Part shown: one piece after another, positions 15,706 through 47,955 of the stretch
Layout: the number at the start of each line of letters is the position of its first letter
Position numbering within the stretch: position 1 is the stretch's first letter
Assembly (NCBI RefSeq): GCF_000379665.1
Contig: NZ_KB903359.1
Coordinates: forward strand, 1,765,340 to 1,829,339
From: Butyricimonas synergistica DSM 23225
Lineage (GTDB): Bacteria > Bacteroidota > Bacteroidia > Bacteroidales > Marinifilaceae
Direction of reading: 5' to 3'
DNA: 64,000 nt
The notes under the pieces: generated by a model
Told to the model about the DNA's origin: nothing
Databases searched by the model: none
The model's input: the letters and a program-made list of their open reading frames with translations, nothing else
Translations under genes and position numbers: made by a program

Positions 15706-15719
15706 GCCTCATTTCTAAA

Positions 15720-17294: not shown

Positions 17295-17309
17295 AACAAA
17301 CGTTTTTAA

Positions 17310-18005: not shown

Positions 18006-18015
18006 AATGTCCTAA

Positions 18016-19509: not shown

Positions 19510-19527
19510 AATATTCCTTTCATTATT

Positions 19528-23016: not shown

Positions 23017-23118
23017 ACATTTGTACCATTATATGATTAAACAATACCCACCCGGTTTCACCCGGTTTGGATTCATCATAAGCGGTTAGAAGTTGCACCT
23101 TCTTTCCGCTTATTTACT

Positions 23119-24282: not shown

Positions 24283-24406
24283 CTTTTACGATCTTTTTAT
24301 CCCTATAACACGAAAAAGTATATGCCATACTATTCCCTTCCCATTTTTTTTTGAAAAAATGAATCAGATCATAAATAAATCTACCGGAAAACAATAAAAA
24401 ACCAAA

Positions 24407-31743: not shown

Positions 31744-32988
31744 TTACTTCGCATATTTCTCGTTAATTCTTTTCACCTCCGTGTAGACAAACGCCCCTTC
31801 ACCCATCGTCTTCATGGACAAATCTATATATTTCTTTCCTTCTTTCTTTTGCCCGGACAAGAAAAGTATCTCCGCATAATAAGCCATTCCCACGGCATCC
31901 TTTCCATCTTGCATCTTTTTCAACCAATACAAGGCGATATCCCTTTGCTCTTGATTTTTAGCATTTACCCCCAAGTTATGCGCACATGATCTAGTTAACA
32001 TTGCATTCCCATTCTCTCCATATAGCGGAACAAGTTCCAAAAGAGCCTCCAAATAAAGCTCGTCTTTATGATTTCTTTGGGCATAACGTACCTTCTGATT
32101 TGCGACAAGTAATTTAAATTCATCCTTCAACTGGGGATACTTCACGCACAAATTTCTATAAATTCTTTCCCAATCCGGTATATTCACGGTATCTTTCACG
32201 TGAGGCACAACCATTTCCCGTTCAATCAAGTTCAACACTTTTTGTTCTGCACTCCTTTCACCGAGTACGGCATTCACCTCGCCCGGATGCTCCAGAAAAA
32301 ATTTAAACGTTTCATCATTCGTGCTGAAAATGAAATCCGAAGCATATCGTATTCCTTTCTCAGACACCCGTTCTTCCGGGGTGATTGTCTGCCAGAACAC
32401 GTTAGCCACTTTCATGGCGAACTCTCTCTCTTGTCGTCGGGCAAAATCAACCGACAAATCAAACAAGAAATCTACATCCCGTTCCCCAGCTTCAAACTTC
32501 CTCCAACGAGTGTACAACTGTTGCCTCTCATCTAATGCCGTCTTCCCCAACTCAATAAAAACTTTCGTATTAGTTGTCGCCCCCGGCATCGAATGCACGA
32601 GCTCTCCTTTCGGGTTGAAAAAGAGCAAAACTGGTACTGTCCTTATATTAACAAGCCTTTGCACCCTATCAACTTCTTTATACCAAGCCTTCGTACGCTC
32701 ATCATCTTGAGCCGTTTTATTAATCTGCAATTTCACACAGATAAAATGCTCGTTAAAAAATTTCCCGACTTCTTCATTGGGAAACACGACTTCTGTCATA
32801 TTCCGACAAGGTCCGCACCAAGTTGCCATGACATCCATAAAAATATACTTATTCTCCCCGGTAGCCTTTTTTACCACCTCATCCCAGCTCATGCTCTGGT
32901 CGAACTGGATTCCTTTATTATCTTGAGCTATTATTCCGACGGGAAACAACAAGATCAACCCGATGACGATTCTATACATTGTATTCAT
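31744..32988 (-). CDS. Secreted thioredoxin-fold protein, CGPC (copy 2)
   Basis: The product has 414 residues. A signal peptide ends near GIIAQ. The thioredoxin domain covers about 25-150, with active site WCGPC at C58 and C61, GIQFDQSMSWDEVV before it and RTVPVLLFFNPKGELV after it. The remaining 260 residues look helical and repeat-like. It is the last gene of locus 2, a paralogue of the gene 11 bp upstream. It probably acts on disulfides in the periplasm, perhaps on the imported substrate or on the cysteine-containing peptidases (inference). Confidence 0.85.
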   Translation of the reverse strand: MNTMYRIVIGLILLFPVGIIAQDNKGIQFDQSMSWDEVVKKATGENKYIFMDVMATWCGPCRNMTEVVFPNEEVGKFFNEHFICVKLQINKTAQDDERTKAWYKEVDRVQRLVNIRTVPVLLFFNPKGELVHSMPGATTNTKVFIELGKTALDERQQLYTRWRKFEAGERDVDFLFDLSVDFARRQEREFAMKVANVFWQTITPEERVSEKGIRYASDFIFSTNDETFKFFLEHPGEVNAVLGERSAEQKVLNLIEREMVVPHVKDTVNIPDWERIYRNLCVKYPQLKDEFKLLVANQKVRYAQRNHKDELYLEALLELVPLYGENGNAMLTRSCAHNLGVNAKNQEQRDIALYWLKKMQDGKDAVGMAYYAEILFLSGQKKEGKKYIDLSMKTMGEGAFVYTEVKRINEKYAK

Positions 32989-32999
32989 AACTCCGGCTT

Positions 33000-34289
33000 T
33001 TAATTTATTTCATTGACAATCTGTTTCAACAACTTCATTTCTCTGGCATTTTTCTTCTTCATCTCCATCGCCCGTTCGTAAGTTTTACTTCCCTCTTTAG
33101 TCAACTTCAAAGCGGAATTCACACATTTCAATCCTTTCCCTTTTTGCTTGTTCAAGAAAAGCACTTCGGCATAATTCAACAATTGATATGCATCTTTTTC
33201 ATCCAACGTTTTTTCCAGCCATTCCAAAGCGACCTTACGGTCCTCTTTATCCCGTGCTTTCAATCCTAACTCGTGAGCGTAACTACGAACCAACATATCA
33301 TTTCCTTCCTCATCGCACATCGGAACTAATTCTCTTAAAACCGAAGCACAAAGCGCATCATTATGATACTTCTTGGAATACACCAATTTGCGATCCAGAA
33401 GCATCTTTTTAATTTCTACTTCTTTCCGGGGATATTTCACGCTCAAATCTTGGCAAATCCCGTCCCAATCCGGCATATTCACGGAGTCATTCATCAATGG
33501 CAAAATATACTTCGCCTCGATTGCCCGCATGACTTTCTGATTTGCCGCTCCTTTTCCAAGCACGGCATCCACCTTTTCCGGATAATCATAAAAGAGACTG
33601 AACATGGCATCATCCACACTGCCAAAGAAATCGCTTGCGTAACGGATTCCCTTGTCCAACAAACGTTCTTCGGGAGTTATCGTCTGCCAGAAAGTATTCC
33701 CCACCTCTCTCGCCATGACCTTATCCCCCAACATCAGGAAATCAACCGATAAATCGTACAGAAACTCCACGTCCCGTTCTCCCGCCTCGTACTTTTTCAG
33801 GCGAGTAAAAATCTGCTGATTCTCATCCAAAGCCTTCCGCCCACATTCGATAAATTCATTCACGTTCGGAATTCCCCCCGGAACAATATGCACCAACTCT
33901 CCTTTCGGGTTATAATAAAGTGCCGTCGGGAGTACCTGAATCTTCGCCTCCGTACAAATCTTGTTCACTTCTTTATACCAGGCTTTCACGTACTCATCGT
34001 CTTTAGCCGTCTTATCCGTCTGCAATTTGATACAAATAAAATGCTGGTTATAAAAATCACCCGCTTCCTTCTGCGTGAAAACATTTTTCACCATTGCCTG
34101 ACAAGGCGGACACCAGGTAGACATAACATCCACGTAAATATACTTGTTTTCCCGAGTAGCTTTCTCCACCACCTCGTTCCAGCTCATACTCTTGTCAAAC
34201 TGGATTCCTTGTTCTTGTGCCACCATCGTAACAGGCATCCACAATAACAAAATAAACACAAACCTAAAAATCGATTTCATACGTTTCAT
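33000..34289 (-). CDS. Secreted thioredoxin-fold protein, CPPC (copy 1)
   Basis: About 429 residues from the ATG at 34289, chosen because it gives the signal peptide MKRMKSIFRFVFILLLW and leaves 10 bp after the upstream gene; an earlier ATG at 34319 would overlap that gene. The active site is WCPPC (C60/C63), with PTALYYNPKGELVHIVPGG as the cis-proline side. The rest aligns along its length with the neighbouring paralogue. The CPPC versus CGPC difference suggests that the pair have different redox potentials and perhaps opposite roles. Confidence 0.83.
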   Translation of the reverse strand: MKRMKSIFRFVFILLLWMPVTMVAQEQGIQFDKSMSWNEVVEKATRENKYIYVDVMSTWCPPCQAMVKNVFTQKEAGDFYNQHFICIKLQTDKTAKDDEYVKAWYKEVNKICTEAKIQVLPTALYYNPKGELVHIVPGGIPNVNEFIECGRKALDENQQIFTRLKKYEAGERDVEFLYDLSVDFLMLGDKVMAREVGNTFWQTITPEERLLDKGIRYASDFFGSVDDAMFSLFYDYPEKVDAVLGKGAANQKVMRAIEAKYILPLMNDSVNMPDWDGICQDLSVKYPRKEVEIKKMLLDRKLVYSKKYHNDALCASVLRELVPMCDEEGNDMLVRSYAHELGLKARDKEDRKVALEWLEKTLDEKDAYQLLNYAEVLFLNKQKGKGLKCVNSALKLTKEGSKTYERAMEMKKKNAREMKLLKQIVNEIN

Positions 34290-34299
34290 TTTTAATTTA

Positions 34300-36555
34300 C
34301 TACAAATTCTTAATAACATCCTCTATTTTATTCTTGCAATGAACCAAACTCTTCCTTCTCTCCCTCGACAAGGACATTCCAAGCGCTTGTTCCATCACTA
34401 CATACAATTTATTCAAATGCACTTGCAAAGCAACGGATTCACCCCGACCGGGATTCCTTCTCAATGCCTTCTCCACACATTCCAAATACTTCATTTGCAA
34501 AGCTTCCCGATACACATCCGCCTTTCCCGCCTCTGACCATACCGCCCGGTATAAATCATCCAGGAATTCATCCAATGTGTAGAAAGCCGTCGTTCCGGAC
34601 ATCACTTGATTCAATGCGAACCGGGACATCCCTTTCTCGAATAAATATTCCAACACTGCATTCTGCCAAGCCGCAATCACCTCCGAGGGAGCCAATCCGG
34701 CTTTCTTGACCAACGGGGATAGAACAAGCCAGTACGGAGTTGTGAAAATCTCCCGACTCAAAAACGCCAAAGCCTCTTTCTGTTCTTCCCGTCCCACGGG
34801 ATTAGGTTTTGCAATACAACTTTCCCCTTCCGGGCAAATCTCAATTCCCCCGAACTGTTGAAGCACAAGTAACACGATCGAGTATAAAACCCCATCCTTT
34901 CCTCCGGCACGGCGAACCCAAATTCCCCACCCTGTCGTATCCCGTCCATTCCGGATCAAATCAGCCCTTCTAAATACTTGCTTCACATTTGCCAGCGCAC
35001 ACGAAGCCCCTGCAACCGGATCACGTCCTAAAGTTCCCAGATTAGCCATCGCTTCTATCGCCGTGGGTGAATCTGAAGAATAATACCATGTGTGTTCCGG
35101 CTTGTTTAAATTCCTCCGCAACAATGCCTGCAATCCTTCAACAGCTTCCCCCTCTTCTCCCCAATAACGATAGCCCCAGTTGATCGCCCAACAATCATAA
35201 CTACCCACAACGGGGAACAAATTCTCCGTCGCCACCCGATCCTCCGGCTGTGCCACCGTATTCACAAAATGATCTCCCATGATTGACGAGGACATTCCAT
35301 TTTCCGACAACCAATCATTATCCCTCAATTCTTTATCAAGTATCCACGCCGATGCCAATTTATTCGGCAATAATCCCAAAGCCTGCCCGATGCGCTGTCC
35401 TAAAGTTACACGAATCAAATGCCCTTCAATCTCTTCTGCCTCGGTTTTCAAATCAAATACCTTCTGCCACAAAGCGCTTCTCGTAATCCACTCATATTTC
35501 AATGAATCCAACACTCCGGGAGCCCAATGCACACGAGCCTGTATGATCTGCCCGCTCCGGGGGTCGACATTCACGTCCACCTCCTCGTTTTGCAAAGAAT
35601 CTTGGTAAAGAATCAATCCTCTCAACGACACCAAAGACTGCCCCGTTTCTTCCGGTATATCCCTGGCAACAATAGCATTCCGGAAACCGGCAACCTCAAA
35701 AGCCCGCTGCCAATCTTCCACCGCCCGCACAAAATAGGGTTTCCACCGTTCCGGGATCTTCGGATCAAGATAAAACACGATCGGCTCTTGCGGTTCCGTC
35801 AATTTACCCGTCAAATAAGCTTCTACATCCTTGGGTTCCAACGCCCACCGTCGGATCACGTGGCGAGTCCGAATCCCCGTACATTCATCTTTGAAATAAT
35901 CGTACGAAACCGAAGAAAAACCGATTCTTCGATCCCTCACACGTCCTTCTCGGGGAGTCTCCGGCAACAAGAAAAACGTGGTAGTCACCGGCATTTCTGT
36001 CAACTCATCATCAGCCCGCTTCCACTGACGACGGACAACGGGCAATTCCCTCATCACAGTACACGCGAAAAATCCATCTTCCGCATGAAAACGAACCACA
36101 CGTTTACCCGGCGCATTAAAAAGCGGCTCTTCTCTCATTATCAGTTCCGTGATATCAATCAAGAGTTTCTCTTGATCCTCCCGTTGAACAGGGCAAATCA
36201 TAAAGGGCATCTCCACCTGGTTACGAGCCACGAGTTTCTTCATTTCAGGAGAAGTTTCTTTCTCACCGATCCGAAAATCCGGCAAAAACACGCCTACCTC
36301 TCCGGCTCTCTCCTGTTTAAAAGACACAACGATCTCTTTCCCCAGCCTACTCCCCGGTTGATACGTCCGGTTTTCACGCACAGAATCCAGACGGCTTACA
36401 ACCAAAAACGCACGCGCCAACTCGGTACGGGAAATGTCCAACAGACATCTTCCCTCGGACGGATACACGCGGAAAGTCGACGCGCAACCATCATGCGACC
36501 ATATCACTTGAATAAGTAATAGAATACAAAATATTTTCTGATACATACAATACAT
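34300..36555 (-). CDS. Catalytically degenerate zinc-metallopeptidase homologue (DUF5117/DUF4953 family)
   Basis: The product has 751 residues with a signal peptide (about 1-25). Family blocks are present: RRWALEPKDVEAYLTG, EPIVFYLDPKIPERWKPYF, DPRSGQIIQARVHW and VNTVAQPEDR. The zinc site is gone: the window aligned to HExxHxxxxxH reads QRIGQALGLLP (about 387-397), with no histidine left, and the Met-turn is SIMGD. It lies 6 bp after the active homologue, the same order as in locus 1. The frame is intact over 2.2 kb. A non-catalytic partner role is inferred. Confidence 0.88.
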   Translation of the reverse strand: MYCMYQKIFCILLLIQVIWSHDGCASTFRVYPSEGRCLLDISRTELARAFLVVSRLDSVRENRTYQPGSRLGKEIVVSFKQERAGEVGVFLPDFRIGEKETSPEMKKLVARNQVEMPFMICPVQREDQEKLLIDITELIMREEPLFNAPGKRVVRFHAEDGFFACTVMRELPVVRRQWKRADDELTEMPVTTTFFLLPETPREGRVRDRRIGFSSVSYDYFKDECTGIRTRHVIRRWALEPKDVEAYLTGKLTEPQEPIVFYLDPKIPERWKPYFVRAVEDWQRAFEVAGFRNAIVARDIPEETGQSLVSLRGLILYQDSLQNEEVDVNVDPRSGQIIQARVHWAPGVLDSLKYEWITRSALWQKVFDLKTEAEEIEGHLIRVTLGQRIGQALGLLPNKLASAWILDKELRDNDWLSENGMSSSIMGDHFVNTVAQPEDRVATENLFPVVGSYDCWAINWGYRYWGEEGEAVEGLQALLRRNLNKPEHTWYYSSDSPTAIEAMANLGTLGRDPVAGASCALANVKQVFRRADLIRNGRDTTGWGIWVRRAGGKDGVLYSIVLLVLQQFGGIEICPEGESCIAKPNPVGREEQKEALAFLSREIFTTPYWLVLSPLVKKAGLAPSEVIAAWQNAVLEYLFEKGMSRFALNQVMSGTTAFYTLDEFLDDLYRAVWSEAGKADVYREALQMKYLECVEKALRRNPGRGESVALQVHLNKLYVVMEQALGMSLSRERRKSLVHCKNKIEDVIKNL

Positions 36556-36561
36556 CCATTT

Positions 36562-38814
36562 TTATTTTAAAAACTTATTCATCGTCCGAATCAAATCCCG
36601 GCAATAGATACCGAAATATTCCTCGTTATTCTTCGCCAGAGCCTGTTCCACTCTCTTCTTCAAGTCACCCACGTACTGCTTGTACAACCGGACTCCCTGC
36701 GGTCCGGTACTCGAACAATAAGCGCTGACCCGCTGGAAGAAAAGCCTTTGTAAATTTTGCCTGTAAATACCCGGCATCTTCCCGTCCAACACATCCTGCC
36801 AAACCACTCGGTGCAAATCCTCAAAAAAATCATTCAACGCGTAAACCCCGACAGAATCCTTTACTGGCAAAGAACCCGCTTTGGGCAATAACCAAGCTAA
36901 TGCCCCCGTATGAATCACTTCCATGAACTGAATCGGATCATTCTCGATTTTTCCTGCACACATGGGACTCACCAACCATTCGGGAGCGGTAAACACGTAT
37001 TTCCCCAAAAACATCATCGCCCGGTGTTGATAGTCTGGTTCCACCAAAGTCTTCACGAGTTGCTCTTTCTCATCATAATCCCAATAACATCCTCCCACGA
37101 TGTTTATAACCTGTTTCATATAATAATGGTATTGTCCCAAAGGCACATTTCGCTCTCCTATAGAAACAATCCGGTCATAGATTCCCCGATAAGTCGTATA
37201 ACTACCATCTTGATCCGGCTCCCACTGATCCATCCGTGCCAAAACCCATTTCAAATTTTCCATCCCGTAGGTATTTGCAACCACCAGGTCATCACCCACA
37301 TCCTCCGATTGCGACCGGGGGTCGCTCACGTTGGATTGAGCCCCGTACCACTGTCCCCACTTCTTCTGCTCCTCCCCGACCCAAGCCGACACATGGGCAC
37401 GTTCCTCCTCCAAGGTCTTTATTTCCGGAAATAAACGATAGCCCCATTCAATAGCCCAACGGTCATATAGGTTTATCCTCGGAATCAGATTCAACCGATC
37501 GACACCATCCCCGGGTTGTGCCACGTAATTAAAACGCGAATAATCCATGATCGAAGTGGAAATCCCGTTTCGTGTCAACCATTCGTTATCCCTCAATTTC
37601 TCGACCGGAACGACGGAACTTGCCCCCATATTATGCGTCAATCCCAGCGTGTGTCCCACCTCGTGCGAGATAATCACCGACAACAATTGCCCCAACCACT
37701 CGTCCGATATTCCCTTGGAAAATATCTCCGGATCACTTGGTCCTGCCTGTACCAGATAATTCCCTTTCAACCATTCCACCAGACTATGCCCCCACATAAT
37801 ACGGGCATGGTAAATCTGTCCGCTTCTCGGATCGGCATACCGCTCCCCGAAAGCGTTCTCTTCCGTGGTCGGTCGATACACGATTGCCGCCCGACAAGAC
37901 TCCAGCGTCCAAGTCGAATCGGCAGGCGAAGCCACCCTTGCTTGAATCGCATTCCGGAACCCTGCCTGTTCGAAAGCGGAATTCCAATTATTGATTGCCA
38001 CTTCAATATAAGGGATCCATTTCCTCGGGGTCAACGGATCAATATAAAACACGATCGGCTGCCGAGGTTTTACCAAAATACCCTTCCGGTACTTTTTCAT
38101 ATCCTCCGGCCGAGGCTCCAACCGCCACCGGGAAATACAATAGAAATCGTCTTCCCTGACCATTGTATCCCCACAAACCAAATGCTTGCTTCTGAAGTAC
38201 CCCACCCGTTGATCCTCATGCCTCAACCGCATCAATTCCTCGTCCATCAACAACAGACAACTACTTACCCGTACATTCCCGTCCCTCTTTTCCCGCCAAC
38301 CGACCAACTCTTGGCAATCCGGATGAGAAATCGCCTTCAACGTCGACATTTGTAATTTTCCATTCACCACACCCGTGTCACAAACCACCCACGAGGTAAT
38401 ATCCAAACATACGTTTCCTTTTCTACCCCGTTCCTTCGAGAAACTAGCTATCTCAAAAGGTGGTTTCGGGGGACCGATCATATTAGAACCCGCATTCTTA
38501 CTGATCGATGCTTTTTGCATCAAAGCCATCTGTCCGTTTTCCCGTTCCCGTAATTGCAAAACTTGCAATTCTCCCACCATATCTCCCGCCTGAGCAGTAC
38601 ACCCACTCCCCACGGCTGCCAGCTGATTCACCAACAACCATTCCCGCCCGATCAACGCCTCTGACAATTCCCAAATCACCTTATCCCCTTCCCGATAAAT
38701 CCGAAAATATGCTTTACCTTTTCCCTTGCCTTCCGAAAAAAAAGGCAAAACAAGGAGGAAGAGGAAGGAAAACAATGTTTTCCTTCCCATTACTCGAAAT
38801 CTCAATACATTCAT
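36562..38814 (-). CDS. Zinc-dependent metallopeptidase, metzincin type (DUF5117/DUF4953 family), active site intact
   Basis: The product has 750 residues with a signal peptide ending near FFSEGKG. The zinc site HEVGHTLGLTH lies at residues 384-394, followed by NMGASS and the Met-turn TSIMDYSRFNYVAQPGDG. Other family blocks are SRWRLEPRPEDM, RQPIVFYIDPLTPRKWIPYI and ADPRSGQIYHARIMWGH. It is about 135 residues shorter than the locus 1 enzyme. It starts 4 bp after the PKD-like gene and is translated just before its inactive paralogue. It probably degrades protein or peptide substrate outside the inner membrane. Confidence 0.92.
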   Translation of the reverse strand: MNVLRFRVMGRKTLFSFLFLLVLPFFSEGKGKGKAYFRIYREGDKVIWELSEALIGREWLLVNQLAAVGSGCTAQAGDMVGELQVLQLRERENGQMALMQKASISKNAGSNMIGPPKPPFEIASFSKERGRKGNVCLDITSWVVCDTGVVNGKLQMSTLKAISHPDCQELVGWREKRDGNVRVSSCLLLMDEELMRLRHEDQRVGYFRSKHLVCGDTMVREDDFYCISRWRLEPRPEDMKKYRKGILVKPRQPIVFYIDPLTPRKWIPYIEVAINNWNSAFEQAGFRNAIQARVASPADSTWTLESCRAAIVYRPTTEENAFGERYADPRSGQIYHARIMWGHSLVEWLKGNYLVQAGPSDPEIFSKGISDEWLGQLLSVIISHEVGHTLGLTHNMGASSVVPVEKLRDNEWLTRNGISTSIMDYSRFNYVAQPGDGVDRLNLIPRINLYDRWAIEWGYRLFPEIKTLEEERAHVSAWVGEEQKKWGQWYGAQSNVSDPRSQSEDVGDDLVVANTYGMENLKWVLARMDQWEPDQDGSYTTYRGIYDRIVSIGERNVPLGQYHYYMKQVINIVGGCYWDYDEKEQLVKTLVEPDYQHRAMMFLGKYVFTAPEWLVSPMCAGKIENDPIQFMEVIHTGALAWLLPKAGSLPVKDSVGVYALNDFFEDLHRVVWQDVLDGKMPGIYRQNLQRLFFQRVSAYCSSTGPQGVRLYKQYVGDLKKRVEQALAKNNEEYFGIYCRDLIRTMNKFLK

Positions 38815-38818
38815 TAAA

Positions 38819-40324
38819 CTACTTTTTGTACACGATTTTCTTTATCTTACCGAAATCAGTAGCCAACAGCCGAGGCGCCGCATCTTTCAAGTCCCCGGTA
38901 TTCACCAACGTGAAAGCATAGAGCGATCCCTTGCTCCCATTATACGTGGCTGCCGTCAGGCTTAGTCCATCGTTCGTCGGCAAGACAATTGATACCACCT
39001 CTTCTCCCGACGGGAAAGCATACAGCAACCGGGAGGTATTCGCATCCGCATCATACAGGCGGATCTCGTTCCCATTTGCATAGTATATTTGCTGCCTGCC
39101 ATACGGGGAAACAAACACCGGACTATCCTTCATGCCGGGACACTCCTCTTCGCTAACTACATGAAAAGGTCCGCTGCTAAATCCTACTCCCGCCATCGTA
39201 TAACGTATAACGTAAACATTGTCCGCATCCCGGAACACTATATTGTAATAGTAATTTCCCGCACCTCCGGTTGGCATTCCAATCAGTTCCCAGTCTTCAT
39301 CCACCTTTGCCGCATCGAACAATGTCACTCCCCCTGAAACATAAGAACCGGTCACATCTTGAAGCACCACGTTAGTTGCCTGATACCGGGAATAAAAACG
39401 ATGATTCGCTTCGTCAAAATACAAGATCCCCATCAACTGTCCCCTATAATTCATCCCCGAACCGATAAAGGAAGCACAACCGGTTTCCAAACCATCGGAT
39501 GCGACCATCGGTTCGCCAAATAAAGTTTGCCCTTGATCCTGATGCATCCGGTAAATCTTTCCATCATTTATCAAAACAAATGTAGAATTCTTCTCGATAT
39601 AATTTGCCAAAACTTGCGGACGAATAACCGCCGGACGCGTAGCAAACATCTGCTCGATATCGGCAAGCACCCGGCAAGAACGATAATCTATCACGTACCC
39701 CCAGTCTTCCCCGAAAATCATCGTCATATTACCCGCGGCGACCTTCCCGTCCGGAGATGAATACCCGCTAAAATCTACCGTAAACAAATCCGTTACATTC
39801 GGCTTTAACACAACATCCGGGTTTACCTCCGAGAATATACCATGAAACACGGTGGACGTGGACGTGTTATAAAAACTGATATCCGAATAATTGTCATATT
39901 GCTCCACGACAAAATAACCGGGCTGATAGTTTGTCCGCACTTCCAGTTTCATTCCTTTACGATAAGTAACTCCCGTGCTATTATCCGTTACTTTAAAATT
40001 AAACGGGTAAGAATTACCGGAAGCATAATCAATCTGCTCGGCAAAGTTCCGCTCCGTGGATAATACGACATTCACGGAATCCGAGGAGGTCGGAATAGAA
40101 ACCACCCACTCGTAACTCAAGTTTTCTTCATTCTCTTCCAAGGCAAAAGAGAGTTTGGGCGATACTTCCAGTACCATTCCCTGTTGCACGGACACGACAT
40201 CCGGTAAATCAATCGAAATCTCGTTCAAATCCCGATAGGAATAATTCCCCTTATCCCGGTAACACGACGCCAAAAGCAATACGCCCAGCATCCCGATAAG
40301 ACTATATCTAAACCAATTTTTCAT
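38819..40324 (-). CDS. PKD-like family surface lipoprotein
   Basis: The product has 501 residues. The lipobox LLLASCYRDKGNYSYRDLNE parallels CYEDKGNYD in locus 1. An Ig-type domain comes first (LSYEWVVSIPTSSDSV, then FKVTDNSTGVTYRKGMKLEV), then a beta-rich region. It lies 15 bp after the DUF4843 gene and 4 bp before the active peptidase, in a tightly packed operon. It is a likely surface component of the locus 2 uptake complex; its ligand is unknown. Confidence 0.82.
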   Translation of the reverse strand: MKNWFRYSLIGMLGVLLLASCYRDKGNYSYRDLNEISIDLPDVVSVQQGMVLEVSPKLSFALEENEENLSYEWVVSIPTSSDSVNVVLSTERNFAEQIDYASGNSYPFNFKVTDNSTGVTYRKGMKLEVRTNYQPGYFVVEQYDNYSDISFYNTSTSTVFHGIFSEVNPDVVLKPNVTDLFTVDFSGYSSPDGKVAAGNMTMIFGEDWGYVIDYRSCRVLADIEQMFATRPAVIRPQVLANYIEKNSTFVLINDGKIYRMHQDQGQTLFGEPMVASDGLETGCASFIGSGMNYRGQLMGILYFDEANHRFYSRYQATNVVLQDVTGSYVSGGVTLFDAAKVDEDWELIGMPTGGAGNYYYNIVFRDADNVYVIRYTMAGVGFSSGPFHVVSEEECPGMKDSPVFVSPYGRQQIYYANGNEIRLYDADANTSRLLYAFPSGEEVVSIVLPTNDGLSLTAATYNGSKGSLYAFTLVNTGDLKDAAPRLLATDFGKIKKIVYKK

Positions 40325-40339
40325 ACTTTCGTGTTTAAA

Positions 40340-41125
40340 TTAAAAAGAAACTTGTTTTCCATTTTCATCCAGCATCTTTTCACCGGGATGTTCTGTTTGC
40401 CACAATTGCAACTCACGACGCATCCGCAACAAGTCATCATACATATAATTCCTGTCTGCGGGGGACACCGGTTCCACTCCCCAGTATTTTCCCAACTTCT
40501 CGTACATGAAATCAAATTTAACCCGGCTCCAATCACCAAAAATACCACACTGCGACCAATAAGGCGGCTCTGACACCAAGTTTGAAAACTTCAACTCGTA
40601 ACGCAGAGATATTAAAAACGTCTTGTCGTCTGATACCGTATCCCCGAACACCTGTGCCGGAAATTCTTCGAAAGGTTCAAGCACGAACTTGACCATTTTC
40701 TCTTCATCACCCAAGTTCTTTTTAAGTAACAACACCTTTGGAGTAAATGAAACTGCATTAGCAGGCAACACATTATCCTCGATTACAAAATGCACTCCCT
40801 CCACGGCAGTACTTCCCTCTCCCGCAACTAGATTTACTTTACGGTCATAATCCACGGGCTTCCCCATCAAACGAATTTCCGGAAGTTCAAAAATATGTTC
40901 TTCCACCCCCGGGTAAAAATAGAAGGAATAAAAGCCACTGAATATCTTGTTGTACTCGTCCATGTCAAATTTACCCTGAACAATCACATCACCTGTACCA
41001 TAGAACCACACCCCTGCGTCATAAGAGGCTCCGGGAATCTTATCATCATCTTCACAAGCGGCAACAATCCCCAACAACATCACCGCCAACATAATTCTTA
41101 TATTATATAACGTTTTCATCTTCAT
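40340..41125 (-). CDS. DUF4843 domain lipoprotein
   Basis: The product has 261 residues. The lipobox is IVAACEDDDK. An early YSFYFYPG strand and LPEIRLMGKPVDYDRKVNLV lead to EGVHFVIEDNVLPANAV, a DUF4843 hallmark. The C-terminus has QCGIFGDWSRVKFDFMYEKL. It sits 15 bp from both susD and the PKD-like gene, as in locus 1. Accessory surface lipoprotein of unknown function. Confidence 0.8.
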   Translation of the reverse strand: MKMKTLYNIRIMLAVMLLGIVAACEDDDKIPGASYDAGVWFYGTGDVIVQGKFDMDEYNKIFSGFYSFYFYPGVEEHIFELPEIRLMGKPVDYDRKVNLVAGEGSTAVEGVHFVIEDNVLPANAVSFTPKVLLLKKNLGDEEKMVKFVLEPFEEFPAQVFGDTVSDDKTFLISLRYELKFSNLVSEPPYWSQCGIFGDWSRVKFDFMYEKLGKYWGVEPVSPADRNYMYDDLLRMRRELQLWQTEHPGEKMLDENGKQVSF

Positions 41126-41140
41126 AACTATTCTCGTTAA

Positions 41141-42580
41141 TTACTCTGTAATTCCACGTCTTAATTCAAGCTCATTCTCCGGTACAGGGAAGACATAACC
41201 GGGAGTCGATACATCCACGTATGTTTCCTGATCGTGATCCAAAACCTTCGTTATATTCAACCGTTTATAATAATAAAACAAGTGTCCTTCGCAAAAAAAT
41301 TCTTTCTTGTATTCATTCAGGATCTCATTCTGGAACTCCTCGTCCGATATGGAATCTTCCACCTTCTTCAATCCCCTGTTCACCAACACCTCATTCAAAT
41401 AAGCACGTCCCTCCGCTGTATTACCACAACATTCGGCAGCGATATAATACATCTCTGACCAACGCATCAAAGTAACCAAATCCCCTCTACTGGCAACACT
41501 TCCATTATACCGGTAAAACATATACCTTTGCCCACCGACTTGGTCGGTTGCAGCAAGATACCACAAATAGATAAACCTGTAATCCGTCCCTCCTCCTGAC
41601 GTCGTTCCATAAAGCTTCTCTATATCCGTCACGTCGTTACGCAAACCATGTACATCAAATCCCATTCTTTTGTCATACACGTCTTTCAAATTGGTTTTAT
41701 TCAAGGTAAAAATACACTCCGTGTAGAAAGCAATATCTCTACTTTGCAAATCACGACAATCCACTAACGGATCCATAAACCTGAATTGTTCAGACTCGAT
41801 CACTTTTTGGGCATACAGCAAAGCGTTTTCCGTATCCCCCTTCCAGTGATAAATTCGAGCCATCGTCGCGTATACCGCCCAACGATTAAAATGAGAGCGG
41901 CGACTGTTCAACCAACTGTTCTCTACGGAAGACGAGTACATATTATCTACCGACAACAAACTATCCGCCTCCTGTAAATCCTGAAGAGCCAACCCGATCA
42001 CCTCCTCCTCCGTGTTAAACAAAGGCCATTCCCGCCCGGACAATTTCGTCACGTAAGGAATCGTCAATTCATCCCCGGCCAAAGCATACGGCTTCCCGAA
42101 CAAACGCATCAGATCGAAATGCATAAAAGCACGCACACCTAACGCCTCTCCCTTTATCATCCGGTAATTATCATAAGTAAATACCGATTTGTAATCTTCA
42201 ATCTGTTCCAACAAGCTATTCACGTTGGCGATGACATTATAACCTTTGCTCCAAATTTTATCAATCGCACCGACAACTTCAGAACCTTGATAATAATTGG
42301 TTGCATCCAGATCTTTTCCCAAACCACTGACATTATAAGTATCGAATATTTTAAAACGTCGAGCTAACACATCCAGATAAGTCACACTCAGTATATCCCC
42401 GTACAAAGCATTGTCCGCCATCAGGTAATACACCCCCGCCATGCCATCCATAAATCCCTGCTCCGTTTCAAACATCTCGTAATCGATCACTTCCGTCTTC
42501 GAAGGTACATCCAACCAATCGTTGCATGCCCCCAAGGAAAGCCCGAAAACCAACACGATATAAAAAATATATTTCTTCAT
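41141..42580 (-). CDS. RagB/SusD-family nutrient-binding outer-membrane lipoprotein
   Basis: The product has 479 residues. Its start is LSLGACNDWLDVPSKTEV, then GFMDGMAGVYYLMADNALYG. The family helix is IKGEALGVRAFMHFDLMRLFG, and the C-terminal block is LVTLMRWSEMYYIAAECCGN, ending with YVFPVPENELELRRGITE. It pairs with the SusC-like transporter 27 bp upstream. Length and order match the locus 1 homologue, although sequence identity is clearly low, which suggests different ligands. Confidence 0.93.
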   Translation of the reverse strand: MKKYIFYIVLVFGLSLGACNDWLDVPSKTEVIDYEMFETEQGFMDGMAGVYYLMADNALYGDILSVTYLDVLARRFKIFDTYNVSGLGKDLDATNYYQGSEVVGAIDKIWSKGYNVIANVNSLLEQIEDYKSVFTYDNYRMIKGEALGVRAFMHFDLMRLFGKPYALAGDELTIPYVTKLSGREWPLFNTEEEVIGLALQDLQEADSLLSVDNMYSSSVENSWLNSRRSHFNRWAVYATMARIYHWKGDTENALLYAQKVIESEQFRFMDPLVDCRDLQSRDIAFYTECIFTLNKTNLKDVYDKRMGFDVHGLRNDVTDIEKLYGTTSGGGTDYRFIYLWYLAATDQVGGQRYMFYRYNGSVASRGDLVTLMRWSEMYYIAAECCGNTAEGRAYLNEVLVNRGLKKVEDSISDEEFQNEILNEYKKEFFCEGHLFYYYKRLNITKVLDHDQETYVDVSTPGYVFPVPENELELRRGITE

Positions 42581-42607
42581 AATCTATCTTTTTATTCTAT
42601 ATAAATA

Positions 42608-45600
42608 CTACAACCTAGCCGACAGCGTAAACAGGAAACTTCGATTGAATGGATAAGACGTACCGGACTCACGCTTCATACTTGAAATACGCAACACATT
42701 CTGCATCGAGAAACTCACGCTGAAACGATCGCTGTTAATCGCCTCTTTGGAAGCGTCATTCACTTTCTGAACGGCTTTGGTCACAAATCGGTTTAACCAA
42801 CGCTCCACCAGAATACCCGGGTCTATTGTCAATCCCGTTATCTCGAACGAATTTGCCTTTTGCACGAAACGGGAAGTCACTTTCGTCGATTTTTCCGTCC
42901 GCGTGTAACCTTCCAAATCCACCAATCCTTTGTAATCGGCAGGCTTACCCGGTGTTGTCCAACGATCTTTCAGCACCCGTTTATCCATGTTTTGTTGCAA
43001 ATTAAAATTCTCCACCTTGCTTGCCAACGTACTATTATACAACACACCTCCCGTGCGGAATGTCAACCCGAAATTCAAACGAATCCACTTGTACTGGAAA
43101 TTATTGTAAATCGTAAAATTCAATTTCGGTTGCATATCCCCCATGTACACCATATCCTCCTGCCTCCAGACATAAGTCTGCCGGCCGTCTTTCGTCAGGA
43201 ATACCTCATAACCGTTACTCGCGTCAATTCCCAAAGAGCGTACGGCATACAAACCGCTGACACTGGCTCCTTCCACGTATTGGAGCACCGGAGTCGTGGC
43301 ACCGTTTGTTATCTGCTGGTTCAAGGCTGCCTGATTCTGAGCCTTCAAATTATCCGTGATCTCCAATAACTTATTCTCGTTATGATAAAATGAAGTGGCT
43401 ACCGACCAGTACAACTCTCTTTTAGGCGCCTGCAACAACACGACCCGAACCCCAAGGTCAAAGCCCACGTTTTGGCTTTTGCCCAAATTATCATGATAAG
43501 AATCAAAACCATTGGAAGGAACCGTGGAAGTCGACATGATTAAATCATCCGTCGTTTCCCGGTAATAATTAAAGTTTGCCGTTACTCGTCCCTTGAACAA
43601 TCCAAAATCCACACCATAATTCCATTTTTGCGTTTGCTGCCACTTCAATGCCGTATTTCCCAACCCCATCAATGTAGCCGGGATAAAATCAAGATACCGT
43701 CCGTCCGTTTGATACTTGTACGTTGTGGCTCCCGCGTAAGCCGGGAAATTCACGCTCCCGGTAAATCCCCATGAAACCCGAAACTTCAGCTGGCTGATAA
43801 CGTTCTGCCCCAGCATAAACTTCTCGTTATGGAAATTCCAACCGATACCGACAGAACCCAAATCCCCGAATCTCTTTTTTCTCCCGAACACGGACGAACC
43901 GTCCGCCCGGATAGAACCATCCAGCAAATAACGGTTGCCGTACGCATAACTCAAGTTCCCGTAAAAACCAGCCGTTCGTTTCATACTATAACTCCCGGAC
44001 GGTTTCGTGTTACTGTATTGCAACCCAAACAACAAATCATCCAAACGGTCATTCGGGAATCCCTTAACCACCAACCCGAAAGAATTCGACTCCTCGTGAT
44101 TCAACTGCGCACCCGCAGAAATATAAATCGTATGGTTCCCAAAGTTCCGTCCGTAATTCAACGTGGAGGTCAACTGCCACTTTTTCGTCTTTCCGTTATT
44201 CTTGGTGTACGACCCCCTTTCGGAAAAAGCCGACGTGAAAAATTCGGACGCCGTCCCCGGCACGAAATTATCCCGTTCCGTCGTCCCGTGCGTGTAAGTA
44301 AACGTTGTATTCAACTTCAGCCCTTTCACGAAAGTCACTTCCGACCAAAGCTCGTTAGCAATGGAAAGACTGGAATTTGTATTTACCATATTCAAATGGG
44401 CATTCCAAAGCGGATTCTTCTCGGAAGGAGTATGGGACGAGGATATCAAACCATTGCTCCCTTCCGTGGGATAAATATCCACGTATTTCGTAACATTACC
44501 ATTTTCATCTTTCGGCAACCAGTAAGGATTCATCCGGGCATACTGCCCGAAATCCCCGTAAGGTGATTCCGACCCCTTGGAAGAATTAATCTTCACGGCA
44601 TATTGGAAACTCAACTTCTTGTTCAACGTCGTGTATTTTACTCGTACGTCACCACCGAGCACATCCCGGTAAGAACCTTTCATAATACCGCCGTTATTGG
44701 AATAATTCACCGTCCCCTGTAACAACACTTTTTTGGTACCGTAAGAAACCCGTGCCGTATGGGAATGAGTGAATTCCGTACGCAAAGGTTGAGACAACCA
44801 ATACGTATTAATTCCCCGGGCTACATTATGCTTCACCAAATTGTGCAAATCGTCCAACCGTTTTTGTTCCGTGAAATCACGGCTACGGTAATACCCCCCT
44901 AACTCCTCGACCTCCAGTTTCTGACGGGCATTCATCAAATTAAAACTGGACAAATCCGGTATATTCACCCCGTAAGTGCCCGTGTAAAAAACCTGGGTAG
45001 CCCCCTCTTCTGGCTGGATCGTTTCCACAACCAAAACCCCATTCGCAGACTTGGAACCGTAAATAGCCGTTGCGGCGGCATCCTTCAACAAGGTGACAGA
45101 CTTCACGATATTGGGGCTCATGTCAAACAATGTCTGCAAATCGGACTCGAAACCGTCGATAATAATCAACGGCGGGTTGCTGATATACCCGTACTCGCTC
45201 TCCATATCCGTCTGCATAATACTGTTCGTTCCCCGCAACTGCACCTTCGGCAACACGTTGGGGTTCGAACCGTTCACCACGTCGTCCGGCATCTGGAATG
45301 AAGCGTCCAACACTTTCAAGGCACTCAAGATACTTGTTTTACTGATCGCTCGAATATCCTCGCCCGTGTACTGGGTTGCGGCTCCCGTAAAATTCTCTTT
45401 CGGACGGGTAAAAATACCATTATTAATCACCGTCACCTCCTCGATGGCATAAGCCAAAGAATCCAAGATCACCGTGCCCATATCCGATTTTGCCGTCAAT
45501 GTCTTTTTCTCGTAACCGATAAAGCTAAATTCTATTTTACTCCCCTCGAACACATCCTTCAACACAAAATGCCCGCTGGTATCCGATGTCGTGCCCCGGT

Positions 45601-46060
45601 ATTCGCCAAGCACCTGTACTGTCACCCCGGGGATCGACACGTTCTTGGCATCCACGACCCGACCGCGTACTCTTTGAATCACCTTTCTAGCTACCGGGGT
45701 TTCTTTCGCCTTGCTCACCACGATAGCACCACTCTGAAACTTCCACTGCAATTTCGTTCCTTTCAACAACTCGTCCATCACCTCGCTAATCGAAGCATCC
45801 TTGAACTCGTAATCCTTCCGGGGAGAATTAGGCAAATCCTCCTTCAGATAAGTAAACCGATAGCGAGTCGTCTCCTGCAAGCGCTTGAACACCTGTTCTA
45901 CTAACACCTGCTTCATGCTCAGCGTGACACGCTGTTCCGTTTGGGCGGAAAGCATTCCCGAAGACCCGAAACTACTCGCGAAAACGTAAAAGACCAGAAA
46001 AAGGCTCTTCCAAACCATCTTTTTTCGTCCTTTCCCTCTCGTAAAATGATTTTTTTTCAT
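42608..46060 (-). CDS. SusC/RagA-type TonB-dependent transporter with STN domain
   Basis: About 1150 residues from the ATG at 46060 (MKKNHFTRGKGRKKM, basic signal peptide start); an ATG at 46111 would add 17 unlikely residues. Domains are: STN (about 45-110), carboxypeptidase-regulatory-like (PGVTVQVLGEYRGTTSDTSG), plug with SVTLLKDAAATAIYGSKSAN, then a large barrel ending in the typical NRSFLFTLSARL. The frame is intact, unlike in locus 1. The STN domain and the fecR gene 94 bp upstream imply surface signalling. It imports an unknown ligand with its SusD lid. Confidence 0.93.
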   Translation of the reverse strand: MKKNHFTRGKGRKKMVWKSLFLVFYVFASSFGSSGMLSAQTEQRVTLSMKQVLVEQVFKRLQETTRYRFTYLKEDLPNSPRKDYEFKDASISEVMDELLKGTKLQWKFQSGAIVVSKAKETPVARKVIQRVRGRVVDAKNVSIPGVTVQVLGEYRGTTSDTSGHFVLKDVFEGSKIEFSFIGYEKKTLTAKSDMGTVILDSLAYAIEEVTVINNGIFTRPKENFTGAATQYTGEDIRAISKTSILSALKVLDASFQMPDDVVNGSNPNVLPKVQLRGTNSIMQTDMESEYGYISNPPLIIIDGFESDLQTLFDMSPNIVKSVTLLKDAAATAIYGSKSANGVLVVETIQPEEGATQVFYTGTYGVNIPDLSSFNLMNARQKLEVEELGGYYRSRDFTEQKRLDDLHNLVKHNVARGINTYWLSQPLRTEFTHSHTARVSYGTKKVLLQGTVNYSNNGGIMKGSYRDVLGGDVRVKYTTLNKKLSFQYAVKINSSKGSESPYGDFGQYARMNPYWLPKDENGNVTKYVDIYPTEGSNGLISSSHTPSEKNPLWNAHLNMVNTNSSLSIANELWSEVTFVKGLKLNTTFTYTHGTTERDNFVPGTASEFFTSAFSERGSYTKNNGKTKKWQLTSTLNYGRNFGNHTIYISAGAQLNHEESNSFGLVVKGFPNDRLDDLLFGLQYSNTKPSGSYSMKRTAGFYGNLSYAYGNRYLLDGSIRADGSSVFGRKKRFGDLGSVGIGWNFHNEKFMLGQNVISQLKFRVSWGFTGSVNFPAYAGATTYKYQTDGRYLDFIPATLMGLGNTALKWQQTQKWNYGVDFGLFKGRVTANFNYYRETTDDLIMSTSTVPSNGFDSYHDNLGKSQNVGFDLGVRVVLLQAPKRELYWSVATSFYHNENKLLEITDNLKAQNQAALNQQITNGATTPVLQYVEGASVSGLYAVRSLGIDASNGYEVFLTKDGRQTYVWRQEDMVYMGDMQPKLNFTIYNNFQYKWIRLNFGLTFRTGGVLYNSTLASKVENFNLQQNMDKRVLKDRWTTPGKPADYKGLVDLEGYTRTEKSTKVTSRFVQKANSFEITGLTIDPGILVERWLNRFVTKAVQKVNDASKEAINSDRFSVSFSMQNVLRISSMKRESGTSYPFNRSFLFTLSARL

Positions 46061-46154
46061 ACCTTTGTTTTTAAGGTTATTAAATAACGATACACAAATA
46101 ATCTTGAACATAAGGAAGAGTGTGCAAGACTCTTCCTTGTTTTTGATTATATCT

Positions 46155-47297
46155 TTAGAAACGGATATATATTTTCTTTCCTTCTATTCTATATTTAAAA
46201 TCAATTAAACTTTGCAACACTCCTAATAACTCTTCCACCCTCTCGTCACGCATGGCGTGGAAAGTCACACTACCACCAGGCATGCCAACCTTATTCTCGA
46301 TAACAAATTCTACATCATACCATTGTGCCATAGCGGAAAAAATAACCTCTATCGGCTCTCCTTCAAAGGCAAACATTCCTTCCCGCCAAGCGACACAGGT
46401 CGACGGGTCTTCAAGTTCCACCACTTTCATATCTCCCGTTCCCCGGTCAAACACAGCTTGCTCACGAGGAGATAATATCCTGTATACCGAATCATTCCCC
46501 ACGTGCACGACGCCTTTCAGCAAGGTCACCTTCAAAAATTGCTCATCGGCATAATCCCGTACATTCAATTCCGTTCCCGTCACCCATATCTGCAAACTCC
46601 CGTTCGTATGCACTTCAAAAGGTCGGGTAGGATTCGTCTTCACTTTAAAAAAAGCCTCCCCGCATAATCTAACCTCCCGTTTATCTTCCGCGAAACGATC
46701 CGGGTACATCAATACCGTTTCCGAATTCAACCATACCTCGGTACTATCATTCAGCCGTAACCAGTACTCGCTTCCCCTCGGAACCTCTACACGAATCATC
46801 TGCACCTTTTCTTTTGCAACCACGTTCTCGGCAACCTTTTCCTTCACGTGTTCTTTCCACTCCGTACCCGTGTTATTCTCTTTCAACACCACCTTGCGCC
46901 CGTCATCCACGGATAGAAATGCATAATATTTGCCTTGGACTTCGGGCAAAGGCACCCCTTCCCTTTTTTCCGTCCGAAGCGAAAAGATGACGACCGTACT
47001 TAAAACTGCCACCAACAATACTGCCGCCACCGAAGAAATCCTCATGTACAACCTACGACGTACCTTTCGATGAATCTTTTCATGGATTGCCTTTATCGTC
47101 TTCTCGTAGTTCAGATGACCGAAATTCTTTTTGCGCTCCGCTAAACTTCTCCCGGAAACAAACGCCTCATACATTTCCCGATTCTCCGGCGAAGCATCAA
47201 GCCAACGCTGCAAGCGTTCCTCTTCCCCCGGGGAAATATCCCCTACCACCTTCTTCACCATAATCTCGGCTATATCTATTCCATCCAAATAGTCCAT
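46155..47297 (-). CDS. FecR-family anti-sigma factor
   Basis: The product has 380 residues. The cytoplasmic N-terminus has the helix LQRWLDASPENREMYEAF; a membrane segment lies at about 86-107 (SSVAAVLLVAVLSTVVIF). The FecR domain has VPRGSEYWLRLNDSTEVWLN and a DUF4974 C-terminus with FRYRIEGKKIYIRF-like strands (the actual residues are FKYRIEGKKIYIRF). It controls the sigma factor encoded divergently at 47401 and receives the signal from the locus 2 SusC. Confidence 0.93.
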   Translation of the reverse strand: MDYLDGIDIAEIMVKKVVGDISPGEEERLQRWLDASPENREMYEAFVSGRSLAERKKNFGHLNYEKTIKAIHEKIHRKVRRRLYMRISSVAAVLLVAVLSTVVIFSLRTEKREGVPLPEVQGKYYAFLSVDDGRKVVLKENNTGTEWKEHVKEKVAENVVAKEKVQMIRVEVPRGSEYWLRLNDSTEVWLNSETVLMYPDRFAEDKREVRLCGEAFFKVKTNPTRPFEVHTNGSLQIWVTGTELNVRDYADEQFLKVTLLKGVVHVGNDSVYRILSPREQAVFDRGTGDMKVVELEDPSTCVAWREGMFAFEGEPIEVIFSAMAQWYDVEFVIENKVGMPGGSVTFHAMRDERVEELLGVLQSLIDFKYRIEGKKIYIRF

Positions 47298-47363
47298 ATC
47301 TTATTTTTTTATCACTAGAACACCACCACGACAAAAAAGTATACATCGAATAAAAAAAAATTA

Positions 47364-47371
47364 TACATTTG
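47364..47371 (+). promoter_or_regulatory. Candidate -7 box of the locus 2 sigma gene
   Basis: TACATTTG is an exact TAnnTTTG match, 29 bp before the sigma ATG, in the 103-bp gap between the divergent fecR and sigma genes. No clear -33 element is seen. Confidence 0.45.
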
Positions 47372-47400
47372 TATTGTGATATTTACAATCCCCTCGTGCT

Positions 47401-47955
47401 ATGGAGTTGGATACCCTCTTACAAGAAATACAAAAGGATAACCGAGAAGCCTTTAACGAGCTCGTTTTGCGATACAACGAATCGTTGAATGCTTTCGCTT
47501 TCAATATCCTAAAAGACAAAGAGGCGGCAGAAGACATCGTACAAGATGTATTTGTCAATCTATGGCTGAACCGGAAAAAGATCACCTTCGGGGAGTCCAT
47601 GAAAAGCCTGCTCTACGTATCCACCCGAAACCTGGTATACAACTATATCCGTTCCGCGAAAAGAGAAAACGAACGCTATAAACACCTTGCGGCAGAAAAC
47701 GAAACCTCCACTTTAAATTATATCATACAGGAAGAAGCTCTACGTCTTCTGAACGAATCAATCGAACAACTTCCGCCCCGTATGGCAGAGGTCATCCGCC
47801 TCAGCTTGGAAGGACTGAAACAAGAGGAAATCGCCGAACAAATGGAGGTTACCGTCGCCAACGTGAAAAGATTGAAAGCACTCGGTATCGAAAAATTAAA
47901 AAAATCACTCGGGGCACTATCCTACTTCGTGTTTACCACTACCGGGCTGATCTGA
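47401..47955 (+). CDS. ECF RNA polymerase sigma factor, FecI-like
   Basis: The product has 184 residues. Region 2 has AAEDIVQDVFVNLWLNRKKI and MKSLLYVSTRNLVYNYIRSA; region 4 has LPPRMAEVIRLSLEGLKQEE and IAEQMEVTVANVKRLKALG. Unlike in locus 1 it is divergent from its fecR. Its 3' end overlaps the convergent mutY-like gene by 39 bp. It is expected to drive the operon 46060-31744. Confidence 0.93.
   Translation: MELDTLLQEIQKDNREAFNELVLRYNESLNAFAFNILKDKEAAEDIVQDVFVNLWLNRKKITFGESMKSLLYVSTRNLVYNYIRSAKRENERYKHLAAENETSTLNYIIQEEALRLLNESIEQLPPRMAEVIRLSLEGLKQEEIAEQMEVTVANVKRLKALGIEKLKKSLGALSYFVFTTTGLI

Follow-up and report, generated by a model that had tools for sequence, protein, structure and literature searches.

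This article examines a run of ten genes, here called locus 2, in a 64,000-nucleotide stretch of DNA from Butyricimonas synergistica DSM 23225 (contig NZ_KB903359.1, forward strand, positions 1,765,340 to 1,829,339). The whole of this stretch is referred to as the window, and positions are counted within it. The run combines a FecI/FecR-type regulatory pair, a SusCD-type receptor with further lipoproteins, two metzincins, one active and one dead, and two thioredoxin-like proteins. An earlier reading of the letters alone (the original prediction) had placed ten open reading frames (ORFs) at 31744-47955; all were found there, with family matches. What is new here is the pattern of active first and dead following metzincins, the two-block history of the module and a propeller model for its PKD_2 protein. 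The genes and the two blocks that they form are as follows.

47401..47955, + strand: extracytoplasmic function (ECF) sigma factor, FecI-like, divergent; Sigma70_r2/r4_2; TIGR02937 89.6 bits, above cut-off
46155..47297, - strand: FecR-type anti-sigma factor; PF04773 and PF16344 (FecR and FecR_C)
42608..46111, - strand: SusC/RagA-type receptor, TonB-linked, STN domain borderline; TIGR04056 512 bits (cut-off 368)
41141..42580, - strand: SusD-like lipoprotein (SusD-like_3); PF14322, PF07980; lipobox
40340..41125, - strand: DUF4843 lipoprotein; PF16132; lipobox, then CEDDDK
38819..40324, - strand: PKD_2 lipoprotein, a PKD-like domain and a predicted beta-propeller; PF16407
36562..38814, - strand: active metzincin (DUF5117/DUF4953), exported, no lipobox; PF16313 284 bits; HExxHxxGxxHN and Met-turn
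34300..36555, - strand: dead metzincin, full length; PF16313 171 bits
33000..34319, - strand: exported thioredoxin-like protein, WCPPC; PF13098; CxxC; no lipobox
31744..32988, - strand: exported thioredoxin-like protein, WCGPC; PF13098, PF00085; CxxC; no lipobox
38819..47955, no single strand: receptor block (sigma factor, FecR, SusC, SusD, DUF4843, PKD_2)
31744..38814, - strand: processing block (active metzincin, dead metzincin, two thioredoxins)

The genes are tightly packed. From SusC to the last thioredoxin gene the gaps are 27, 15, 15, 4, 6, -20 and 11 base pairs (bp); the predicted range of 4-27 bp thus holds except that the dead metzincin and first thioredoxin genes overlap by 20 bp. 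FecR and SusC are separated by 43 bp, and FecR and the divergent sigma gene by 103 bp. By Pfam and NCBIfam, an ECF sigma factor and a FecR protein with FecR_C adjoin the receptor, and a SusC/RagA barrel above its curated cut-off lies beside a SusD-family lipoprotein. Against TIGR02985 the sigma factor reaches 122.8 bits, under the cut-off of 126.4. As predicted, no carbohydrate-active enzyme was found among the ten proteins with Pfam or NCBIfam. All ten genes recur, in the same order and orientation, in another species of the genus (genome G304, locus L062); the sigma factor orthologue there is 95% identical and that of FecR 87%. At 47917-47955 the sigma gene shares 39 bp with the 3' end of a convergent helix-hairpin-helix glycosylase-like gene (named by eye), an overlap also present in L062.

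Active and dead metzincins

The active metzincin of locus 2 carries the motif HEVGHTLGLTHN and the Met-turn SIMD. In its neighbour, the H, E, H and H of the motif have become Q, R, Q and P; three zinc ligands and the catalytic Glu are gone, and the motif Gly and Met-turn Met are retained. Judged by its sequence, this second protein (34300-36555) is a pseudo-metzincin, placed in the family by its profile match. The structural model of the active copy (predicted local distance difference test, pLDDT, 86.6) gave no Foldseek match at E<=0.001 when the whole model was used; in a second look, metzincin catalytic domains ranked first. No sequence relative under E 0.1 was found in the PDB for PKD_2, for DUF4843 or for the metzincin of locus 1, a second copy of the module in the window that is described below.

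The pairing recurs in the genome. All metzincin neighbourhoods of the window's genome (G000; 4.77 Mb, 16 contigs) were taken, 33 stretches beside the window, and mapped with profiles seeded by the window's own genes. There are 34 metzincin tandem groups with 53 full-length metzincin genes; the metzincin counts omit ORFs that are shorter than 600 amino acids (aa) or cut at an end (pieces in L020, L030 and L033), as well as a split dead copy in L069. The first gene of the tandem, or leader, keeps HExxHxx[GSA]xxH in 34 of 34 cases, whereas 13 of the 19 followers have lost the zinc motif (11 lack HExxH, and in 2 only the third His is replaced; Fisher p=3.2e-8, with copies treated as independent, which duplicates are not). 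The motif glycine persists in all 13 non-active copies, and the Met-turn Met in 8 of them. Among 40 loci of other genomes (20 picked mostly as tandem-pair loci, 20 being further metzincin loci of G304), leaders are active in 41 of 41 cases and followers dead or half-dead in 21 of 33. The original prediction had noted the order active first, dead second, and left it uninterpreted.

Two further loci show unusual arrangements. L074 (genome G311) has five tandem metzincins in the order active-dead-active-dead-active behind SusCD-DUF4843-PKD_2. In L069 (genome G306) the dead metzincin consists of two ORFs (492 and 308 aa) with a TAG inside the match, a decaying or misread copy.

Dead metzincins appear to be under purifying selection, as indicated by the ratio of non-synonymous to synonymous substitution rates (dN/dS). 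Between species, where estimable, it is 0.05-0.16 for dead and 0.02-0.14 for active copies, with many dS values above 1 and near saturation. Where both genes have dS <1, in the comparisons L010/L068 and L022/L070, it is 0.05 and 0.07 for the dead copies and 0.02 and 0.04 for the active ones. The dead metzincin of locus 2 and its G304 orthologue give 0.16 at a dS of 1.9, and the value is thus rough.

In a tree of 96 metzincins, dead copies fall in three clades. A second tree, enlarged by 12 outside sequences and lacking four long rows (those of L028 and L080 among them), places the locus 2 dead clade as sister to its active partners (Shimodaira–Hasegawa-like approximate likelihood ratio test, SH-aLRT, 98) and the other short-type dead clade as sister to its own (93); the long-type dead clade, its active partners and one copy from L014 share a fork that is not resolved (94). 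A single origin of the 25 dead copies is rejected by the approximately unbiased (AU) test (delta log-likelihood, lnL, 184.2; p=0.00024). The tree also shows the locus 2 pair as a third, separate origin, which is not needed: a constraint uniting all 14 dead rows of the short type lowers the fit by 1.6 lnL (p=0.495). Because the dead clades sit by their active partners and the AU test rejects one clade, these phylogenies indicate that at least two independent times the gene was duplicated in tandem and the downstream copy then lost catalysis, and that the product was retained. No higher number is claimed, since the AU test gives no separation between the locus 2 pair and the remaining short-type pairs. 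An active enzyme with an intact dead twin suggests a two-part protease.

Recurrence and cargo of the module

In the original prediction the module had two copies, and the census of G000 gives 34 metzincin groups. The genome has 54 matches to PF16313, 106 to FecR and at least 56 SusC proteins (145 candidates, 56 scored). Its units follow three layouts: sigma-FecR-SusC-SusD-DUF4843-PKD_2-metzincin; a type B, in which a lipoprotein of about 300 aa replaces DUF4843 and PKD_2; and FecR-metzincin-SusC-SusD. The type-B lipoproteins, encoded after SusD (L010, L013, L022, L041 and others), were considered as active zinc lipoproteins and rejected as such: of 21 picked, 20 were aligned (L025 was left out), and Peptidase_Mx1 matches 3 of the 20 (best E 7e-8) and HExxH none. 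They are possibly a second pseudopeptidase family in these systems.

Metzincin matches occur in 43 of the 56 genomes of the family (up to 32 scored per genome) and in 159 of 296 genomes of the phylum (up to 7 candidates scored per genome), so that copy numbers in both scans may be lower bounds. Within the family, each of six species of the genus has at least 13, four genomes from three other genera have 10-17, and the remaining genomes 0-5; at first look, the phylum genomes listed have at most 20 metzincin candidates, compared with 60 in G000. FecR matches per genome range from 79 to 136 across the five sister species, and from 8 to 56 across nine family genomes outside the genus. The metzincin expansion is lineage-specific.

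Gene order is conserved well beyond this genome. A scan of named-species genomes, from which near relatives of the window's host were possibly left out, confirmed 589 metzincin relatives; the best 80 of these are termed named loci, with flanks of up to 10 kb fetched. Not counted among the metzincins are the truncated one that is all L123 has and, in L132, an 86-aa piece labelled dead. A same-strand SusC lies within the flanks in 23 and is absent from them in 57 of these best 80, most metzincin relatives among them thus having no adjoining SusC. The order FecR-SusC-SusD-DUF4843-PKD_2-thioredoxin(WCGPC)-metzincin is present in 3 of the best 80, namely in Chitinophaga arvensicola (L083), a Niastella metagenome-assembled genome (L141) and Pedobacter hiemivivus (L146). 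Pfam confirms four of these proteins in L083 (DUF4843, PKD_2, thioredoxin-like, metzincin) and two in L146 (PKD_2, thioredoxin-like). Because this seven-gene order is present in Chitinophaga, Niastella and Pedobacter, the core is common to distant members of the phylum, and the thioredoxin is part of it in these three loci too. Restriction of the order to this genome, which would have spoken against the original prediction, was not found; it is kept in G304 and in three distant genera. Chance or local duplication of two loci is likewise ruled out, as metzincin groups beside SusCD recur throughout the genome, in sister species and in the same three genera. The full-length metzincin in 79 of the best 80 named loci is in each case single and active, and a dead partner is therefore unnecessary for the core.

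Within the window, the first eight genes recur as locus 1 (10212-24988), in identical order, as the original prediction had said:

24407..24988, - strand: sigma factor
23119..24282, - strand: FecR
19528..23016, - strand: SusC, split by an in-frame TGA (21502-21504) into ORFs of 504 and 654 aa
18016..19509, - strand: SusD
17310..18005, - strand: DUF4843
15720..17294, - strand: PKD_2
12839..15496, - strand: active metzincin, DUF5118-DUF5117-DUF4953
10212..12806, - strand: dead metzincin

Unlike that of locus 2, the sigma gene of locus 1 is co-directional, and its SusC gene has the in-frame TGA; in its counterparts L175 and L076 the SusC ORF runs through without a break. The leading metzincin has the motif HEVGHCLALMH, with Ala for Gly and all zinc ligands present, and was counted as active. 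Locus 1 is trailed at 6945-10184 by an ATP-binding cassette (ABC) ATPase of 306 aa and a large 764-aa protein of the ABC2 permease/ABC_transp_aux type; behind units L076, L175, L183, L197 and L198 lie ORF pairs of comparable size.

Proteolysis and thiol chemistry are recurring themes among the accompanying cargo genes. Pfam was run on ten neighbouring proteins from metzincin units: three are S9 peptidases, and a BSP-type peptidase, a redoxin/TlpA-like protein, DsbD_N, a propeller and one glycoside hydrolase of family GH92 were found, with two proteins lacking a match. Twenty FecR units without a metzincin were picked by hand, roughly by E-value, and ten of their proteins given to Pfam, the counts being lower bounds; at least 10 units have a thioredoxin or redoxin (9 by profile, L191 by Pfam) and at least 3 a peptidase (S8, S46, S9). 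In L011, L075 and L077, three S9-sized genes (770-800 aa) lie between PKD_2, or its place, and the metzincin pair, and a 900-aa one follows; two of those in L011 are confirmed as S9. In L023 (1340-4443), the GH92 glycosidase and the BSP-type peptidase follow a unit with PKD_2 and a metzincin pair, which hints at a glycoprotein ligand there.

Receptor and processing blocks

The module is made up of a receptor and a processing block that, on comparative sequence evidence, have partly separate histories and are replaceable separately. In 20 complete pair loci, evolutionary distances correlate at 0.98 between SusC and SusD and at 0.96 between active and dead metzincin, compared with 0.80-0.86 between receptor and protease. 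Over all pairs, the active-dead correlation is 0.94 (12 long-type pairs) and 0.96 (the other type).

Locus 2 itself illustrates this. Against G304, the genes from sigma factor to PKD_2 show a nucleotide identity of 0.80-0.94 and those from the first metzincin to the last thioredoxin one of 0.55-0.80, with breaks at the PKD_2/metzincin junction and at the end of the last thioredoxin gene. In the gene beyond, which we take to be 2-amino-3-ketobutyrate ligase-like, identity is again 0.86-0.89; on the other side, beyond the glycosylase-like gene, the flanks are unlike (0.31-0.50). The proportion of synonymous differences (pS) is 0.62-0.83 in the processing block and 0.36-0.53 in the receptor block and two flanking genes. 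Since synonymous differences rise there too, the processing block looks like one of different history, not merely of faster protein change.

The reverse pattern is found in L068 (G304). From 13200 to 8001, SusC to the receptor lipoprotein, its identity is 0.89-0.94 to G303 (L067) and 0.64-0.77 to G000 (L010); from 8000 to 3201, the metzincin pair, it is 0.86-0.94 to G000 and 0.65-0.79 to G303. By these identities, L068 is a mosaic with a receptor cassette exchanged between species. Among 24 fetched G304 loci, 13 units of G000 have a clear counterpart, of which L018 and L027 were left unjudged with a receptor incomplete on one side, and about 20 have no close one. Of the 11 that could be judged, by eye on identity and pS, three (locus 2, L010 and L009) have discordant block histories, and in the two of these with a dead partner, the dead copy stays with the active copy. 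As the halves are inherited as two separately replaceable blocks, one processing pair could serve changing receptors.

Proposed mechanism and known systems

A lipobox-type Cys at the end of the signal peptide, by a strict pattern, is present in 23 of 33 SusD, 9 of 11 DUF4843 and 9 of 10 PKD_2 proteins (the remainder by eye). No lipobox match is found in 51 of 53 full-length metzincins or in 8 of 8 thioredoxins, and cutting and reduction are therefore probably periplasmic. This departs from the original prediction, which had placed both at the cell surface; its sensing and import by FecI/FecR-SusCD, proteinaceous ligand and reductive step find support in the gene content (respectively the locus 2 genes themselves; the metzincins and the S9, S8, S46 and BSP-type peptidases of sister units; and the thioredoxin/TlpA-like proteins of other units and of Chitinophaga, Niastella and Pedobacter). 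In Foldseek, the PKD_2 model matches 4r5o (BT1487; E 2e-14) and the B12-binding lipoproteins 8okv (BT2095) and 8bai (BtuG2) (template-modelling score TMt 0.59-0.66; root-mean-square deviation 5.5 or worse). With middling confidence, the protein is thus modelled as a beta-propeller resembling B12-capturing surface lipoproteins, and a role as surface capture protein is proposed.

It is about an even chance that locus 2 encodes a FecI/FecR-controlled SusCD importer of peptides or polypeptides, with capture by surface lipoproteins, periplasmic cutting by an active and a dead metzincin, and reduction by thioredoxins. The ligand would be captured outside by the SusD, DUF4843 and PKD_2 lipoproteins and moved in by TonB-linked SusC, whose STN domain would signal occupancy to FecR; the ECF sigma factor would be freed and the operon induced. 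In the periplasm, the active metzincin and its dead paralogue, probably joined in a heteromeric enzyme, would cut the ligand, the dead subunit perhaps binding or positioning the substrate or stabilising its active partner. The thioredoxins would reduce disulfides of the ligand. A broader proposal is more tentative and somewhat doubtful: an obligate two-subunit metzincin, active plus dead, may have evolved at least two times, and a swappable processing cassette, sometimes with thioredoxins, may, in a single genus with 79-136 FecR-linked units per genome, serve dozens of them, making a combinatorial repertoire for protein acquisition that parallels polysaccharide utilisation loci.

Several observations weigh against these proposals. 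Six of the 19 followers in G000 are active, dead copies evolve faster than active ones in 7 of the 7 comparisons with both dN/dS ratios, and dead copies were found solely in the window's family, the named loci holding single active ones. The active-dead distance correlation is only 0.58 in the five long-type loci of the 20-locus set, active and dead copy share their nearest-neighbour locus in just 7 of 12 and 11 of 15 pairs, and the correlation is partly expected from linkage. The STN match of SusC (PF07660; E 1.8e-6, 28.1 bits) lies just under the Pfam cut-off of 28.4, the PKD_2 model has a pLDDT of 72.7, and location is read from signal peptides only. The PDB relatives of the locus 2 SusC are headed by 8aa4 (E 1e-51) and 5t3r, with RagA (6sli) third (E 2e-35) and BT2264 (5fq6) last of nine; the SusC homologue 8aa4 being far closer than RagA, this search gives no pointer to peptides. 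Finally, L023 carries GH92, and some ligands may thus be glycopeptides.

These points bear on other explanations. The dead metzincin might be a surplus tandem duplicate on its way out in an otherwise ordinary SusCD-plus-protease locus; loss of the motif in followers is what is expected of a duplicate free to decay, and the faster evolution of dead copies and the stop-split L069 agree with it. Yet G000 holds no fragmentary metzincin-profile ORF except three at region or contig ends, dead copies remain constrained between species, the pair is repeated as a pair in L074, and the same outcome arose at least two times; surplus is judged very improbable. It is rather unlikely that the dead protein is no enzyme subunit and instead binds substrate or senses on its own (as a periplasmic binding protein or by input to FecR), or serves the active one as built-in inhibitor or chaperone. 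It has kept conserved positions shared with active copies and lost catalysis, and pseudopeptidases with scaffolding or regulatory roles are described in passages of PMC11266112; however, the dead copy comes strictly after the active copy, and their joint history is closer than that with SusC/SusD.

The ligand, too, could be other than a nutrient peptide: a glycan, glycopeptide, cofactor or siderophore might be imported, with proteases and thioredoxins maturing or repairing the cell's own envelope proteins. Propeller lipoproteins serve B12 uptake (passages of PMC10404256), and the PDB ranking of SusC and the GH92 gene point the same way. Against this, peptidases of several unrelated families recur with thioredoxins as cargo, the ten locus 2 proteins include no carbohydrate enzyme, and a glycoside hydrolase turned up in just one unit, a minority of the cargo genes having been scanned; this account is considered clearly unlikely.

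If the peptide importer is the right reading, the module is a concrete, recurring and testable unit for peptide acquisition; protein feeding in Bacteroidota is less known than glycan feeding. Pseudo-enzyme evolution, moreover, can be followed here in natural replicates, the downstream twin having been inactivated repeatedly and then kept. That receptor and processing blocks are replaced separately suggests a repertoire reshuffled by recombination; if so, ligand specificity (receptor) and chemistry (processing) become separable questions. In the open-licence PubMed Central literature (supplements not covered), no paper was found on DUF4953 or DUF5117, on SusC/SusD with a 'zinc metallohydrolase lipoprotein', or on Butyricimonas together with sigma factors and TonB-dependent systems; searches for DUF4843 and five Pfam accessions gave only papers unrelated by title, and no title described a module of SusCD, anti-sigma factor and peptidase in Bacteroidetes.

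Parts of the module resemble known systems. FecI/FecR cell-surface signalling uses STN-bearing receptors, and locus 2 likewise has an adjoining ECF sigma factor, a FecR with C-terminal domain and a TonB-linked receptor with a borderline N-terminal STN; it differs in that the receptor is of SusCD type and in the 79-136 FecR matches per genome in six species of the genus. For the metzincin pair, the active/dead paralogue design is shared by heteromeric M16 peptidases: in the mitochondrial processing peptidase (MPP alpha/beta), an active subunit works with an essential, catalytically dead paralogue (passages of PMC11266112), and bacterial M16B is placed in the same group. M16 is, however, another family (HxxEH motif), and the metzincin pattern is known from genomes alone.

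On the receptor side, BtuG2, a seven-bladed propeller, forms a stable complex with the BtuB2 barrel (passages of PMC10404256). The PKD_2 model resembles such BtuG-type propellers, whereas the protein has an extra PKD-like domain and is encoded with SusCD, not BtuB. The mucin locus BT4240-50 of B. thetaiotaomicron, as described in passages of PMC11992087, combines SusCD, a surface lipoprotein and the M60-like metallopeptidase BT4244, and is thus also a SusCD locus with a metallopeptidase that attacks protein. By the same passages, BT4244 differs as a surface lipoprotein with a carbohydrate-binding domain, in a locus with glycosidases; they describe no metzincin, dead twin or thioredoxin. RagAB of Porphyromonas gingivalis, finally, is an oligopeptide SusCD for peptide uptake (passages of PMC11817032). 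It shares with locus 2 the SusC/RagA barrel and lipoprotein lid, and RagA is among the nine PDB sequences matched, though not the closest relative; locus 2 adds FecI/FecR control, DUF4843, PKD_2, the metzincin pair, thioredoxins and tens of parallel units. By analogy, locus 2 would work like RagAB with a processing unit attached.

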